From the NCBI GenBank assembly GCA_014874185.1, contig JACWAF010000039.1, positions 1 through 64,000 of the forward strand: 64,000 nt of DNA, read 5' to 3'. The notes beneath the pieces were generated by a model. It was not told the DNA's origin. It saw only the letters and a program-made list of their open reading frames with translations, and did not search any database. Positions 22,525 through 46,555 of this stretch are shown here, one piece after another. Each line of letters begins with the position of its first letter. The stretch's first letter is position 1. Source of the DNA: Nitrospirota bacterium (lineage in GTDB: Bacteria; Nitrospirota; Thermodesulfovibrionia; Thermodesulfovibrionales; JdFR-88). The position numbers and the translations under genes were made by a program.

Positions 22525-24515
22525 CAGGCCCCAAGGACCTTTTCAATGGCCTTGCGGACGACCGCGTCTTCTTCCGAATCGAGAAGTCTTTCAAGCTCTC
22601 CCTTGCCCTCGGGGCAGGAGGCCAGCACATGCACCGCCGCCATCCTGGTGGCCCAGTCCGGGTCCGACAGGAAGGGCGAGACATGCACGCACGCGGCCGC
22701 GAACCCGGAGAGCGCCCTTATCGCGGTACGCCTTATCTCGATGTCATCAGAAGAGAGCATCCCCACGAGGGCTGATTCCGCCTCGATTCCGCCTATCTTC
22801 CCCAGGGCGTTTATGGCCGCGGCTACAACGAACCCGTTCCGGTCCGAAAGGGTTTTCAGGAGGGCGGGGATGTTTTCTTTCAATCCCAGCCTTCCAAGCG
22901 CCCTGACGGCGGCCGCCCGCACCATGTCCTCCGAATCGGCAAGCAGGAGGGACAAGGGCTCGGAGAACTCCGCCTCTGCCGCCGAGCCCATCGAGAGCGC
23001 GGCCCCGGCCCTTATCGAAGGGTCCTCGTCCGTCAGGGCAGGAAGCAGGTGCCTGAAGGCCTCTTTTGTCCCTATCGAGGAAAGCGCGGAGATGGCCGCC
23101 TTCCTGACCTCCGGCAATTCGTCCTTGAGGGCGAACCCCAGCGCCCCGGCCACTTCGGACGGCGCCTTGCCCGCCGGGAAAAGTCTCCCCAAAAGGAGCA
23201 CGGCATTTTTTCTTTTGATCCCATCCTTGCTCTCCGTCCAGCCGATCACTTCCCGCAACTCCAGCCCGCCGCCCAGCTTCTGCAGGGCCTCCACCCCGGC
23301 CTCCTGCACATCCGGGTATTCATCGGCAAGCAGTCCCTTAAGGGACTCAACCGCGGCGGTATCGCCTATGTCCGCCAGCCCGCGCGCGGCAAGTCCGCGC
23401 ACATGGCCGTCCTCGTCTTTCAGGAGCTTGATTAACTCGGCGTAATAAAGCCTGTCCGCGACGACACCGGCCACCTTCGTTATGAACCGCTTCAGATAAG
23501 GGTCCTCGTTCTTCAGAAAAGGCAGCAGCGCCTCTGGCCTTTCCTTTCCGATGAAGACAAGCGCCCTTGCCGCGTCCTCCGCGAACTCGGTCTCCTGCGA
23601 GAGTTCAAACAGGCTCTCAAGGGCCCGCTCGTCTTTCAGGAGCCCCAGCAGGAGTATGGCCGGGATCCTCACGTCCGGTTTGGGGTTCCATGCCTGGTTT
23701 ATCAGGATGAGCACCGCATCGTCCCCCAGGGCCCCTTTCAGGGCGTCAGCTATCCCGGCCTCCGATGCACCCCTGTTGTAAAGCCTCTCTATCGCCTTCA
23801 GGCTTTCCTCCTGGACAACCCTGGAAGTGTCTCTGAGGAAGGGGGCTATTTCCTTCACCGTCTGCCCGTCTCCAAGCACGGCCAGGGCCTTCAGGGCCGG
23901 CTCGCGCAGGGGTTTCCTCTCCCGAAGGGCCCTGACAAGGGCCGGTATGGCCCTCTTGTCCCCTATCCGGCCCAGGGCGTCCGTGGCCGGATAGGCCGTC
24001 CAGATATCGCCGTTTTCCACAATCTCCACCAGGGAGCGCACGACAGAGGCCTCCCCCAGTTTGCCAAGGTGCTCCACGGCCGAAGCCCTTACGTTCTCGT
24101 CTTCGTCGTTAAGGGCCCCGAGCATCACGGAAAGGGCCCTCTTGTCCCTTAGCTCACCCAGTATGTCTATGACGAATTTGCGCACGTCCGCGTTTTCGGT
24201 CTTGAATGCCTCCATCAGGCGGGGCGTGGCCTTCCTGCCCAGGCGGGTAAGCGTCTCTATGGCCGCATTCCTGGCCCCGGCATTGTGCTCCAGGTAAAGG
24301 AGTTCTATAAGCTTAGGGATGTAATCTTCCGGCCGGTAGTCCTCGAACAGTATCTCCTGGGCGGTCTTTCTAACGCGCCAGCTCCGGTCGGCAAGGCCAT
24401 TGACAAGCGGCTCCAGGCACTCGGGCCGGCAATACCCCTTCAGGGCCAGGATTGCGGCCCTCCTTTCGTCCACTCCGCCCGGCCCGAATCCCCCGCCGCG
24501 GGCGTCCTCAGGCAT
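22524..24515 (-). CDS. HEAT-repeat protein of the chemosensory operon
   Basis: The 663-residue protein is almost entirely HEAT/PBS-lyase-like helical repeats of about 31 residues (for example VRKTAQEILFEDYRPEDYIP and VRASAVEHLGKLGEASVVR), roughly twenty in all. No signal peptide, membrane segment or catalytic motif. Such superhelices serve as protein scaffolds. Translational coupling on both sides (8-nt overlap with cheW, 1-nt with cheR) suggests it is a structural or regulatory part of the array. Its partner is unknown. A second HEAT protein is at 43453-45093. Confidence 0.88.
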   Translation of the reverse strand: MPEDARGGGFGPGGVDERRAAILALKGYCRPECLEPLVNGLADRSWRVRKTAQEILFEDYRPEDYIPKLIELLYLEHNAGARNAAIETLTRLGRKATPRLMEAFKTENADVRKFVIDILGELRDKRALSVMLGALNDEDENVRASAVEHLGKLGEASVVRSLVEIVENGDIWTAYPATDALGRIGDKRAIPALVRALRERKPLREPALKALAVLGDGQTVKEIAPFLRDTSRVVQEESLKAIERLYNRGASEAGIADALKGALGDDAVLILINQAWNPKPDVRIPAILLLGLLKDERALESLFELSQETEFAEDAARALVFIGKERPEALLPFLKNEDPYLKRFITKVAGVVADRLYYAELIKLLKDEDGHVRGLAARGLADIGDTAAVESLKGLLADEYPDVQEAGVEALQKLGGGLELREVIGWTESKDGIKRKNAVLLLGRLFPAGKAPSEVAGALGFALKDELPEVRKAAISALSSIGTKEAFRHLLPALTDEDPSIRAGAALSMGSAAEAEFSEPLSLLLADSEDMVRAAAVRALGRLGLKENIPALLKTLSDRNGFVVAAAINALGKIGGIEAESALVGMLSSDDIEIRRTAIRALSGFAAACVHVSPFLSDPDWATRMAAVHVLASCPEGKGELERLLDSEEDAVVRKAIEKVLGA

Positions 24516-42065: not shown

Positions 42066-43463
42066 CTAAAGCAGGTACTCCGCTATATTCACCTTGTACT
42101 TCGCTGGATCCAGCGCCTTTACGATGCTCCTTAAATGCTTTCCGCCCGGGTCTTTTTCCGTCAGGTCCACGGTCCGGGGCCCCGCTTTTATCCCCGTATC
42201 ATCCGTTATCATAACCACCCTGGGGCGCAGGTGCTCGGAGGGGCTGGCGCTGCACACAATCGCAAGCTCGCGCGTGTCCAGCATGACAAGGCTTCCCACC
42301 GGATAAATGCCGACCAGATTGACAAAAAACTTGAACAGCAGCGCATCCAGCTGCGCCCCTGCCCGCTTCATCATAAGGCTCAGGGCCCTGTCCGGGGCCA
42401 GGGGCACCCTGGCATAGACCCGGGACGAGGTCATGCCGTCATACTGGTCCGCTATGCCCACGATGCGGGAATAAAAATCCAGGTCGGAGAGTTTCTGCAC
42501 CTTGGGATAGCCCGTCTTGTCATGATGTATATGGTGCTCGTAGCAGGCGATAGCGGCCCTTATCGACGAACTGTCAAACCCTTTCATCCTGAATATCACG
42601 CTCACCCCCAGAAGGGTATGCCCTTTCATCATCTCCCATTCCTCTCCGGTGAAGCTGGTGGGCTTGTTTAGTATTTCGGATGGTATCTCGGTCTTGCCGA
42701 TGTCATGGAAGAGGGCAACCAGCCCAAGCTCCATGAGGGCCTTCTTGCCAAGCCCCAGCCTCTGGCCCAGCGCTACAGAGAGGATGCTCACGTTCACGGA
42801 GTGATGGTAGGTGTATTCGTCGTAGTTCTTTATGGCGGTCATCCCCAGGAGCAGTTCTTCCTTTTCAAGCAGCAGGTCCACCATGGACTCAATCACCCTT
42901 TTTGCCCTTTTTATGCTCACCCGCTCGCCTGCCTTTATCTTGTTCATGACGCCCCTGGTATAGGAGACGGCATTGAAGTAGGTCCTCTTGACCGCCTTCC
43001 GGAGGTCGTAATTGTCGTCCTCCACTATGCGCCTTATCCGCCCGCATTCGATGCAGTTCGCAGCACTCATGCCAAGGGTGAGATCGTCGAAGGGATCGGG
43101 GCTGTACTGCGAGTTCAAAAAGGCGGAGAGGAATGTCTGCATCTCCCCGGCGTTGACCTCGCAGGCGAACCGCAGGCTCCCCAGCGAGCGCCTCTTGAAC
43201 TCCCTCTGGAGGAAATCGAAGTTCAGGAGGTACTCCATCGAGAACTTTATGCGCTCTTCGTTCAGGTAAAAATACTCGCCCACAAGCTCCAGCGTGACCG
43301 GGCCGTCCTCCCTGGCAAGGGTGTTCACCAGCGAGACGAACTTTTCCACCGAGCTTACCACGGCGACATTGGCGGGGTTATGGATTTGCGCCGTGCGCAC
43401 GATCACGGCGATCTGGTTCACCAGGTCCTTGGCGAACCGCTGGGTAAGCTCGTTACTTTCCAT
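42066..43463 (-). CDS. HD-GYP-type phosphodiesterase with shared N-terminal module
   Basis: A 465-residue soluble protein. Residues about 10-120 form a module also found at the start of the neighbouring HEAT protein. An HD-GYP domain follows with H220-H221, HD253-254 in FHDIGKTEIP, HHIHH and the GYP residues 318-320 in HHDKTGYPK, and a C-terminal part of about 90 residues. The site is complete enough for c-di-GMP hydrolysis, though the DKTGYPK variant departs from the usual DGTGYP. It overlaps the HEAT gene by 11 nt. Confidence 0.85.
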   Translation of the reverse strand: MESNELTQRFAKDLVNQIAVIVRTAQIHNPANVAVVSSVEKFVSLVNTLAREDGPVTLELVGEYFYLNEERIKFSMEYLLNFDFLQREFKRRSLGSLRFACEVNAGEMQTFLSAFLNSQYSPDPFDDLTLGMSAANCIECGRIRRIVEDDNYDLRKAVKRTYFNAVSYTRGVMNKIKAGERVSIKRAKRVIESMVDLLLEKEELLLGMTAIKNYDEYTYHHSVNVSILSVALGQRLGLGKKALMELGLVALFHDIGKTEIPSEILNKPTSFTGEEWEMMKGHTLLGVSVIFRMKGFDSSSIRAAIACYEHHIHHDKTGYPKVQKLSDLDFYSRIVGIADQYDGMTSSRVYARVPLAPDRALSLMMKRAGAQLDALLFKFFVNLVGIYPVGSLVMLDTRELAIVCSASPSEHLRPRVVMITDDTGIKAGPRTVDLTEKDPGGKHLRSIVKALDPAKYKVNIAEYLL

Positions 43464-45093
43464 ATTCTATCCGTTTGATGGCCGTATAGGCGTATTCGCT
43501 AAGGAGCCTGTTCTTCGACTCGCGCAGCCTGTGCAGGCTGGGCAGGGCCTCCTTGCATCCCATCAGCCCAAGGCTGTACGCCGCGCACGCCTTGATCTCG
43601 TCATATCTGCCCTTCCTGAAAAATGAACTGACCCTCAGGTTCCTTAGGAGAAACTCCACAACGCCGGACTCGTTCCAGGATGAGAGCACCTCGAAGAACT
43701 CTTTTTTCTCGTTGAAGTCCAGGTCCACAAACTCCTTCGCTGTCAGCCTGTTCATTATTATCTTTTTTGCGGCCTCGGATTTTATCTGCCCGAGCGCCCT
43801 GGCCGCGGCCGTCCGAACGGACTGCTCCGGGTCGTCCAGGGCGTCTCTTATGGTCTGGATTACACCCTGGCCTCCAAGCTCGCCGAAGGCCTTGATGACC
43901 TCCATCCTCACCCGCACGTCGCTGTGGCGGGCGGCCCTTATCAGGAAGTCCACCGCCCTGCGGTCGCCTATCTTCCTGAATATGTAAATGATGTTCCTCA
44001 CCACATACCACCGGGGGTCCGAGAGGCCCTTTGCCAAAGCGTTTATGTCCTTTTCACCAAGGAGCGCGAGCGCGTCTATGACCGTTTTTCTGGCCTCTAT
44101 GGTCTTCAGCTCGCCCAGTATGGTTATGAACGAGGATATCGCCTCCCTGCCCAGATGGCGGACATAATCCATCAGGATGCCCAAATCCCCCATATTGCCG
44201 GAGTCCAGTTCTTCCCCAAGGCGTTTGATTACCGGCGGCGAGGAGGCAAAGAGGAACACCTGTTCCATCTCTCTCCTCAGGGTCTCCGGGACGTTCGGGT
44301 CCTCCGAGGTCTTCCTGGCCGACTGAAGGATATGGACGGCGGAATAGATCAACCCGTTCTGGACGGCATACTCCAGGGCGCCGCATATAAGCTTCAGGTT
44401 CTCCCTGGCGGCCTCGCCGTCCGAGCAGACCAGCATGTCAATGAGTATCGCGGTAAGCCGGGGTATTTTGTCCCCGGAATCCTTTTCAATCTCCTTTACA
44501 AGCTGGTCGAGGTCGGACCTCGTGATGGGCACTATATCCAGGACCCTGGCCTCGGCCTGCTCTTTCAGGGCCTCCTCATATGCCCTCCTCAGTTCCCCCT
44601 CGTCCGTCTCCTCTTCCCGGGCGCGCATGGTGGCGCTCGCCTCGTATGTCTCGTCCTCAAGCAGGAAATTCTCGTCCACTATGTATTTGACGTGATCGAA
44701 ATCCCGCTCCCAGAAGAGCGTCACCACGTCCTCGTCGTCGCCCTTGTCGAAATCGTAGGATATGGCCTCCAGAAAGCCTTTCATCTCATTCTGGGCAAGC
44801 CCTTTCTGCAATGAAAGCTCCCTTACGCCGTCCTTGAAGAGGATGAAGGCGAGGTTGTCCTCCTTCTCCACGCTCTGGAACACGGGCTTGTCCCCAAGCA
44901 GTATCTCGTTCTGCCTGAGTTTCAAATCGAGGTCGCCGTAAAGGTCAAGGTACTCGATAACTTTTCTGTAGGCGTCCTCCACCGTTTTCCCGTAGACCGG
45001 GTTGTTGGCGGGGTAGATCCTCAGGTTCTTCCTGGCCCGGAGGAAAGACTGCATAAGCTCCTGTCCGAGCTTTATCTCTTCGGCCTGCGGCAT
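43453..45093 (-). CDS. HEAT-repeat protein paired with HD-GYP
   Basis: A 546-residue protein. The N-terminal 110 residues (IYPANNPVYGK; LKLRQNEILLGD; LAFILFKDGVRELSL; NEMKGFLEA) align with the HD-GYP protein encoded next to it. The middle has no obvious fold, and the C-terminal half holds HEAT repeats (PRWYVVRNIIYIFRKIGDRR; VRMEVIKAFGELGGQ; VRTAAARALGQI). No signal or membrane segment. The translation-coupled pairing suggests a complex or fusion-like unit, with the HEAT part as a scaffold. Start is ATG 45093, 6 nt from a -10-like box. Confidence 0.85.
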   Translation of the reverse strand: MPQAEEIKLGQELMQSFLRARKNLRIYPANNPVYGKTVEDAYRKVIEYLDLYGDLDLKLRQNEILLGDKPVFQSVEKEDNLAFILFKDGVRELSLQKGLAQNEMKGFLEAISYDFDKGDDEDVVTLFWERDFDHVKYIVDENFLLEDETYEASATMRAREEETDEGELRRAYEEALKEQAEARVLDIVPITRSDLDQLVKEIEKDSGDKIPRLTAILIDMLVCSDGEAARENLKLICGALEYAVQNGLIYSAVHILQSARKTSEDPNVPETLRREMEQVFLFASSPPVIKRLGEELDSGNMGDLGILMDYVRHLGREAISSFITILGELKTIEARKTVIDALALLGEKDINALAKGLSDPRWYVVRNIIYIFRKIGDRRAVDFLIRAARHSDVRVRMEVIKAFGELGGQGVIQTIRDALDDPEQSVRTAAARALGQIKSEAAKKIIMNRLTAKEFVDLDFNEKKEFFEVLSSWNESGVVEFLLRNLRVSSFFRKGRYDEIKACAAYSLGLMGCKEALPSLHRLRESKNRLLSEYAYTAIKRIEYGK

Positions 45094-45128: not shown

Positions 45129-45410
45129 TTAATAAAGGATTATTTTCTTTGACTTGGCGTAATTGGCTATGACCATGGTGGAGGTGTGCAGCCTCTGAAG
45201 CCGCGTGTTCCTCATCCTGATGGCCTGCATGTCGTTATAGGGGAATTTTTCGGCCCTGATCTCTATCTGGCACTTCCTTATCTCCTGGAAGATGGCCTTA
45301 AGGGCCTCGTTGTCCAGTGGTTTTAAAAAGAGCGGGTTCACGGTTACATAGCCTTCGGCTATGTCATAGGCGATTGCCTTGTAGCCCTTGCCCCTGACGC
45401 TACCCGGCAT
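45129..45410 (-). CDS. Small conserved-looking protein downstream of tatC
   Basis: A 93-residue protein, not recognised. It has KAIAYDIAEGYVTVNPLFLK at the front and ends HTSTMVIANYAKSKKIILY. No signal, membrane segment or cysteine. Rich in Lys/Arg with a predicted mixed alpha/beta pattern. The ATG overlaps the tatC 3' end by 11 nt, suggesting translation coupling. Given its strand, overlap and codon use it is probably real. Confidence 0.55.
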   Translation of the reverse strand: MPGSVRGKGYKAIAYDIAEGYVTVNPLFLKPLDNEALKAIFQEIRKCQIEIRAEKFPYNDMQAIRMRNTRLQRLHTSTMVIANYAKSKKIILY

Positions 45411-46263
45411 CCGGTGCCTTCTTCCTGACCATAAGCCTTGCGGCCAGTATGCCCACCTCGTAAAGGATCAGGATGGGCAGGGCCATCAGTATCTGGTTGA
45501 AGGCGTCGGGGGTGGGGGTGAGGAACGCCGCCGCTATGAAGGCAAAGAGAACGGCGTACTTCCTCTTCTTGGCCAGGGTCTCCGGCTTCACTATGCCCAT
45601 TCGGGCGAGGATGACGATAATTATGGGCAGCTCGAATATGATGCCGAAGGCAAGCAGGAATTTCATGCAGAAGTCCGCGTAATTGCCTATCGATATGAGC
45701 GGCACCAGCGAGGCCGTCCTGTAAGTAAGCAGAAAGTGCAGGGCGAACGGCAGTATCACGACAAAGCAGAAAGACGCGCCAACAAAGAACAGCCCCGTCC
45801 CGGCCAGGACGAAGGTGGCCGCATACCTCTTCTCTTTCGTGAAGAGCCCCGGCGCTATGAAGCGCCATACCTGATAGAGGATGAAAGGAAGCGAGATAAT
45901 GAGGCCCGCTATCATGGCGAGCTTCATCTGCATCCAGAAGGCCTCCGTGGGCGAGAGGAAGACCAGCGAAGGCGCTTTCTTGATCGCCGTGAACGCTATA
46001 TAAGGGTTGTGCATCTGGATAACGGGATAATATTTCATCGGGATGGTAAGAAAATCCATGAGCTGTTCGCTGAAGATGAAGGCAACGAGGAACCCGGCCC
46101 CGAAGCTTATCATGGAATAGAGCAGCCTTTTTCTCAGCTCTTCCAGGTGCTCGGTGAAGGACAACATCCTGCTTTTCTCCGGCGAAGCAGGTTTTACACT
46201 GGGTATTTCCGTTTGGGGCTGTCCGGGTGCCGGTTCAGGCACCGGAGGGTTTATCTCCGCCAT
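45400..46263 (-). CDS. tatC: Sec-independent protein translocase subunit TatC
   Basis: Core receptor of the twin-arginine export system. It has 287 residues with an unusual 35-residue Pro-rich N-terminal extension before FTEHLEELRKRLLYSM, then six hydrophobic segments with YQVWRFIAPGLFTKEKRY and the conserved PDAFNQILMALP. It overlaps tatB by 29 nt. Confidence 0.95.
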   Translation of the reverse strand: MAEINPPVPEPAPGQPQTEIPSVKPASPEKSRMLSFTEHLEELRKRLLYSMISFGAGFLVAFIFSEQLMDFLTIPMKYYPVIQMHNPYIAFTAIKKAPSLVFLSPTEAFWMQMKLAMIAGLIISLPFILYQVWRFIAPGLFTKEKRYAATFVLAGTGLFFVGASFCFVVILPFALHFLLTYRTASLVPLISIGNYADFCMKFLLAFGIIFELPIIIVILARMGIVKPETLAKKRKYAVLFAFIAAAFLTPTPDAFNQILMALPILILYEVGILAARLMVRKKAPDAG

Positions 46264-46555
46264 CTATTGCTCCGTCCATTTCTTTTCCTGTTGATTTGTC
46301 CGAGGGTCCCGCTTCCGCCTGATTTGCCGGTTCCGGCCTGGCCTCCGGTGTTTCCGGAGGGGTGAGGCCCATATTTTTCAGTTCGGCCTGGCGCATCTCC
46401 CGGTCGAATTCGCTTTTCACCCCGGTCATCGCCCTCCGCAACTCGCCCATTATCTTGCCCAGGTTCTGGGCAAGCTCGGGAAGCCTGCGGGGACCGAACA
46501 CCAGGAGGGCCACTACAAAAATCACCAGGATTTCCTGGAACCCGATATCGAACAT
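46235..46555 (-). CDS. tatB: Twin-arginine translocase subunit TatB
   Basis: A 106-residue protein with one N-terminal membrane helix (GFQEILVIFVVALLVFGPRRLPELAQ), an amphipathic helix and a Pro/Glu-rich tail. The FGPRRLPELA and MFDIGFQE features distinguish TatB from TatA. AAGGAT precedes the ATG. Confidence 0.9.
   Translation of the reverse strand: MFDIGFQEILVIFVVALLVFGPRRLPELAQNLGKIMGELRRAMTGVKSEFDREMRQAELKNMGLTPPETPEARPEPANQAEAGPSDKSTGKEMDGAIDGGDKPSGA

Follow-up and report, generated by a model that had tools for sequence, protein, structure and literature searches.

A shared N-terminal module on adjoining HEAT-repeat and HD-GYP proteins of Nitrospirota and its possible part in c-di-GMP signalling

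The response of enzymes acting on cyclic dimeric guanosine monophosphate (c-di-GMP) is determined by their input domains, and HD-GYP proteins are often named by their catalytic part alone. What precedes the catalytic part, and whether it ties the enzyme to a partner, is the question raised by two genes in a 64,000-nucleotide (nt) stretch of a Nitrospirota genome, here called the window (contig JACWAF010000039.1, positions 1 to 64,000, assembly GCA_014874185.1). The upstream gene (43453-45093, minus strand) encodes a protein of 546 amino acids (aa) in which HEAT repeat profiles exceed their cut-off (Pfam HEAT_2, 115.9 bits against 27.7, in three stretches). The downstream gene (42066-43463, also minus strand) encodes a 465-aa protein with a Pfam HD_5 domain (67.9 bits against 27.2). 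An initial sequence-only reading held that the two genes overlap by 11 nt and that the first 115 or so residues of both proteins form one module, marked by four pairs of motifs in the same order, which could be a dimerisation or signal-binding domain linking enzyme and scaffold. Both open reading frames (ORFs) and their overlap (43453-43463) are present, with the HEAT stop codon TAA at 43453-43455 and the HD-GYP start codon ATG at 43461-43463.

By profile comparison, the two N-terminal modules are homologous. Profiles of their relatives, with 74 HD-GYP rows and 78 HEAT rows left after thinning 97 and 92 at 85% identity, were aligned by hhalign with a probability of 98.9% and a P value of 3.8e-17, and a second profile-profile comparison, spanning 135 columns with 16% identity, gave P 3.3e-17. 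Reversal of the HEAT profile yielded P 0.029, the best of 100 column shuffles reached 0.042, and control segments from the remainder of either protein gave at least 0.043; segments still containing half of the module gave 4e-7 and 6e-7. When the organism's whole genome was searched, the HD-GYP module profile found both HEAT N-termini (expectation (E) values 7.7e-10 and 1.3e-8) and the HEAT module profile found the N-terminus of a second HD-GYP protein (E 2.5e-8). Neither profile found any other protein, the matches being confined to the module-bearing proteins of the genome's two gene pairs. Plain BLASTP between the HD-GYP and HEAT proteins was not significant (E 1.2); the likeness is thus real but detectable only by profiles.

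All four motif pairs fall into register in the alignment, and the proposal of one module fused to an HD-GYP domain and, in the adjoining gene, to HEAT repeats is borne out by the profile values with their controls, the whole-genome searches and the predicted order of structural elements. Only its extent had been underestimated, since it measures about 130 residues and not 115, covering residues ~8-139 of the HD-GYP protein (43047-43442) and ~7-136 of the HEAT protein (44686-45075) in the hhalign alignment. A conserved Asn in the loop joining helices 1 and 2 is common to both copies, as N32 of the HD-GYP protein (63/74 rows) and N31 of the HEAT protein (69/78 rows).

AlphaFold2 models of the modules, each predicted with its own alignment, had mean predicted local distance difference test (pLDDT) scores of 86.6 for the HD-GYP copy and 88.5 for the HEAT copy. 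Compared by the order of their elements, the models are alike, each opening with two long helices and continuing with two strands (three in the HEAT copy), a helix, a strand, two helices and a strand, and each ends in a long low-confidence helix directed toward the output domain; differing folds, which would have spoken against a common module, did not appear. In Pfam and NCBIfam, scattered weak matches to differing families (E at least 0.001), seen in no more than 6 of 74 members of one set or 3 of 76 of the other, were not accepted, and the module is undescribed in both collections because no family there covers either copy. A sequence search of solved structures gave no acceptable relative for either module. 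The only match below E 0.001 was 9l08 (E 1.4e-4, HEAT module profile), a cytochrome c555 trimer construct in which no stretch passed alone, and it was rejected. Foldseek found no convincing relative, the best E values being 0.64 for the HD-GYP module and 0.054 for the HEAT module (PelD), with query template modelling (TM) scores below 0.3 among the matches listed. The best Z scores of a second set of structure comparisons, 5.7 and 3.9, were likewise not taken to indicate relatives. Lack of a structural match does not show a new fold, and no new fold is claimed. In a plasmid collection, the HEAT module had no match, and the HD-GYP query had matches that begin at residue 119 or later among the 20 listed of 530, and are therefore matches to the catalytic domain. 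Two of the entries filed as plasmids, NZ_CP154629.1 and NZ_AP026896.1, measure 2.6 and 4.9 Mb and are probably mislabelled chromosomes. Similar N-termini presumably occur in other phyla.

The sequence-only reading had also suggested looking for the module on further kinds of output, and such copies were found. The module heads PAS-HisKA-HATPase kinases in four genomes (G037, G046, G017 and G027). Directly upstream of the kinase gene in G037 is a gene whose product, a sigma factor containing regions 2-4, was read as FliA; adjoining it is a MinD/ParA-type ATPase gene, taken to be FlhG on the strength of its start and position. The gene upstream in both G046 and G017 resembles the same sigma factor, as judged from its start only. 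Genome G080 (locus L213:228-5425) carries a ParA/MinD-type ATPase, a sigma factor, a stand-alone module of 155 aa, a HEAT protein and CheR, the stand-alone module occupying the place of the relatives' module-kinase fusion. In G071 and G152, the module lies within GGDEF-AAA_16 proteins of 1307 and 857 aa (L208:748-4668 and L209:3296-5866), the former with HEAT repeats after the module, an unusual union of cyclase, ATPase and scaffold. A profile of the seven kinase, stand-alone and GGDEF-AAA modules matched the HEAT module at P 1e-19 (best of 60 shuffles 0.029) and the HD-GYP module at P 3e-14 (best of 60 shuffles 0.0062). The module is thus not peculiar to the HEAT/HD-GYP pair and, with GGDEF and HD-GYP both among its outputs, is joined to domains that make and domains that break c-di-GMP.

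Nitrospirota conserve a two-gene unit in which a HEAT gene is followed by an HD-GYP gene. Among loci gathered by searches with either protein or either profile, partly hand-picked and some chosen because they seemed unpaired, 106 distinct module-bearing HD-GYP copies had enough flanking DNA for the test, and 102 of these had a module-bearing HEAT gene directly upstream; three further copies lay at the end of a contig or locus. Two of the four exceptions (L156 and L157) adjoin a split or cut HEAT coding sequence, and two (L150 and L151) are true orphans. Counted from the HEAT side, with some copies counted twice as loci cut them, 131 were paired, three unpaired (L024, L026 and L027) and four at an end. 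The median gap between the genes was -8 nt; of 104 pairs, 78 overlap or abut and 102 lie within 60 nt. These counts rest on guessed start codons and include pairs that occur on more than one locus (98 pairs when identified by the HEAT C-terminus). The HD-GYP form of the module was found in 46 of the 61 genomes of the order and in 18 of 22 genomes chosen across the phylum. The open-licence literature searched gave no account of HD-GYP with a HEAT repeat in Nitrospirota, with a HEAT domain or with PBS lyase. The papers that did bring HD-GYP and HEAT repeats together, on Xanthomonas genomes and jumbo phages, are by title unrelated to the pair; the one naming HD-GYP and Nitrospirota concerns the gut microbiota, and those found for HEAT repeats with c-di-GMP phosphodiesterases and scaffolds, or for HD-GYP with a domain of unknown function, likewise have titles on other subjects. 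HEAT or degenerate HD-GYP partners were also looked for in the accessible part of a 2026 report on DvhD (PMC13090378), which describes no pair resembling this one.

The pair has been duplicated as a unit into at least three subtypes, with partners of matching histories. Subtype 1, that of the window, joins a HEAT protein of ~550 aa to an HD-GYP protein of ~470 aa with a C-terminal tail of ~80 residues (residues 386-465 in the window, 42069-42308) that is not found in the shorter paralogues. Another kind, represented by the genome's second pair on contig C37, joins ~555 aa to ~390-450 aa without the tail, and a third joins ~700-770 aa to ~365-410 aa. In a tree of 196 modules from 98 pairs, the HEAT and HD-GYP copies separate except for one stray long branch (two changes). 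When three long-branched pairs were excluded, leaving 190 rows, a single branch divided HEAT from HD-GYP modules in 92% of 200 bootstrap trees (branch support 92/58). HEAT and HD-GYP module distances correlate across 95 pairs (r = 0.836), a value reached by none of 2000 partner swaps within 15 multi-pair genomes (maximum 0.811). The correlation persisted after removal of the TatC distance (partial 0.41, 0/2000 permutations, at 34 loci with tatC upstream). Trees and matched distances show inheritance as matched pairs, which is not in itself a sign of contact. Adjacency, paired duplication and matching partner histories give indirect support to the view that the two proteins are functionally linked.

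The second pair sits between obg-proB and clpC (L103:5948-8817; gene names read from the sequence), and at that same place a HEAT gene without HD-GYP was seen in two of the three genomes with an unpaired HEAT copy (L175:3464-5080 and L176:5281-7062). In genome G101 (L092:1483-3518), the HD-GYP partner has shrunk to 181 aa, with a partial module and the C-terminal tail and without a catalytic domain; one TAA interrupts the module match, and the gene may be decaying or encode an enzyme-free partner.

The HD-GYP domain proper (residues 210-374, 42342-42836) has PmGH as its closest solved chain (E 1e-24, residues 203-382). The metal ligands of PmGH are E185, H189, H221, D222, H250, H276, H277 and D305 (PMC4159591, in the part accessible), and seven of the eight are matched in the alignment by H221, H253, D254, H282, H310, H311 and D339, which are kept in nearly all 74 rows. 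The HDxGK motif is present as H253, D254, I, G and K257, its H, D and K occurring in 73, 73 and 70 of 74 rows, and so is the GYP motif (G318, Y319 and P320, each in 72/74). Conservation of seven of the eight metal ligands makes catalysis likely, with c-di-GMP as the probable substrate. The genome itself (2.43 Mb) has 11 GGDEF and four PilZ matches, which shows that the organism uses c-di-GMP signalling.

An undescribed N-terminal domain for signal input or assembly is, we infer, the best reading of the module, which would take the place held by GAF, PAS or REC in other HD-GYP proteins. Its ~130 residues would form two long helices with the short Asn-bearing loop between them, followed by a small alpha/beta part. 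The HEAT-borne and HD-GYP-borne copies would have been parted by one old duplication and have travelled together since. The paralogous modules probably dimerise, the HEAT-borne copy associating with that of the enzyme, and the HEAT protein probably controls the phosphodiesterase by this means. The HEAT repeats (about residues 315-540 by Pfam HEAT profiles, 43474-44151) would bind a further partner or cue, and the HEAT protein would hold or release the enzyme through the helix that runs from the module into the HD-GYP domain, setting its activity or its place. A precedent for an N-terminal domain and helix as the controlling part is the GAF domain and linking helix of PmGH (PMC4159591, accessible part). 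That the two genes form a two-protein c-di-GMP signalling unit, in which the modules associate and the HEAT protein governs the phosphodiesterase, is a proposition we consider evenly poised. More tentative, and somewhat short of probable, is a broader version in which the module serves the whole phylum as a plug domain for GGDEF-AAA, HD-GYP, PAS histidine kinase and HEAT proteins, the HEAT and HD-GYP proteins being a two-subunit phosphodiesterase with the HEAT-borne paralogous input domain as its regulatory subunit.

Several observations weigh against a two-protein signalling unit of this kind. The pair is not obligate, with HEAT lacking HD-GYP in three genomes of the same family (the loci L175 and L176 being longer stretches of two of them) and HD-GYP lacking HEAT in two, and the occurrence of the module on kinases and alone indicates that it need not pair with either. 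Inheritance within one operon would likewise produce co-duplication and matching trees, with no need of physical contact. As to the enzyme, the position of the PmGH ligand E185 is occupied by Tyr217, a Tyr in 72/74 rows and part of a Y-T-Y triplet, and a Y/F subfamily with Y-T-Y among its motifs is predicted to be binuclear, with two metals rather than three (PMC4159591, accessible part). The long HD-GYP motif, given as HHExxDGxGYP in the accessible part of PMC3749722, reads HHIHHDKTGYP, so that HHE becomes HHI and DG becomes DK; position 312 is M, L or I in 63/74 rows. Since the long motif is a consensus, the protein is filed as HD-GYP with this departure stated. Judged from these residues, Tyr217 together with HHI and DK leaves activity and substrate not certain.

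The alternative that survives best makes the module a stand-alone input domain, a sensor of small molecules, redox state or membrane-linked signals, with homodimers forming in each of the two proteins; HEAT and HD-GYP would be co-transcribed parallel outputs of one cue that never touch. It accounts well for the copies that have no HD-GYP partner alongside, whether stand-alone, on kinases or within GGDEF-AAA proteins, and the orphan HEAT and orphan HD-GYP copies fit it better than they fit association; PmGH itself homodimerises through its N-terminal domain (PMC4159591, accessible part). Adjacency and pairwise duplication across the phylum, however, demand more than a common cue; the match of partner histories exceeds the TatC background, and the structure searches with the module models gave no ligand-binding likeness. 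Parallel outputs are thus a credible account that we rate as rather less than probable.

Control of the phosphodiesterase by a HEAT partner must also be set against an operon of mere neighbours, in which the common module is a relic, the HEAT protein serves another process such as protein export, and HD-GYP shares the transcript. In the order, the pair is preceded by conserved neighbours, which in the window are a tatA/B-like gene (46235-46555), tatC (45400-46263) and a small ORF of 93 aa (45129-45410) between tatC and the HEAT gene, all on the minus strand; neighbouring genes were named by Pfam where scanned and otherwise by reading the sequence. The string tatA/B, tatC, small ORF, HEAT and HD-GYP thus places export and c-di-GMP genes in one gene string, as the relic account would have it, and the HEAT gene persists without HD-GYP in three genomes. 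Against this, other subtypes keep HEAT and HD-GYP together amid genes unrelated to these, among them obg-proB/clpC and prepilin peptidase as named by reading the sequence, and partner histories match inside multi-pair genomes; a relic among neighbours is unlikely. Chance or convergence between unrelated helical N-termini, for which the silence of BLASTP and the 16% identity might speak, is ruled out to the point of being negligible by a P value of 3e-17 against shuffles no better than 0.04, the reversed profile, the reciprocal whole-genome matches and the third module group, which matches both others (P 1e-19 and 3e-14).

Two further observations concern the window. The small ORF (45129-45410) had no Pfam or NCBIfam match and is 49-66% conserved at the same place in the loci of the order, over 43 locus rows that include the window's own and repeated places. 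A further HEAT-type protein of about 700 aa (22617-24302, minus strand) matches in its repeat part only and lacks the module.

Within one phylum, a domain absent from Pfam and NCBIfam turns up on four kinds of signalling output and identifies a constant partner of HD-GYP, and annotators gain a profile for proteins labelled today only as 'HEAT repeat' or 'HD domain'. If the partnership is true, it would constitute a phosphodiesterase made of two proteins, with a regulatory subunit identifiable by sequence, and c-di-GMP control in Nitrospirota would become directly testable in a laboratory host.

Among known systems, the GAF domain resembles the module in sitting before an HD-GYP domain and in having long helices beside a small sheet. 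Several weak Foldseek matches of the HEAT module model were GAF-containing entries (E 0.05 to 2, TM-scores of at most 0.21), and fold comparison with GAF gave weak matches only, with Z below 6 in all of the second structure comparisons. Unlike GAF, the module matched no GAF family up to E 0.1 (74 and 76 members), and its predicted strands are broken up by helices. PmGH (GAF-HD-GYP) and RpfG (REC-HD-GYP) share with the window protein the HD_5 domain, HDxGK, GYP, the seven metal ligands and mostly the equivalents of D183, K225 and D308, as well as an N-terminal domain linked to the enzyme via a helix. The window protein differs from both in an N-terminal domain that Pfam does not assign to GAF, PAS or REC, and in having a paralogous copy of it on a neighbouring HEAT protein; it also has Tyr217 where PmGH has the metal ligand E185, and HHI and DK where the usual long motif has HHE and DG. 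PmGH dimerises only via its GAF domain and linking helix (PMC4159591, accessible part). In the RpfG-GGDEF-PilZ complexes of Xanthomonas, the GGDEF and PilZ partners bind through the GYP motif, whereas here the putative partner is a HEAT protein with a copy of the enzyme's N-terminal domain; the likeness would lie in an HD-GYP protein working jointly with other proteins (PMC3749722, accessible part).

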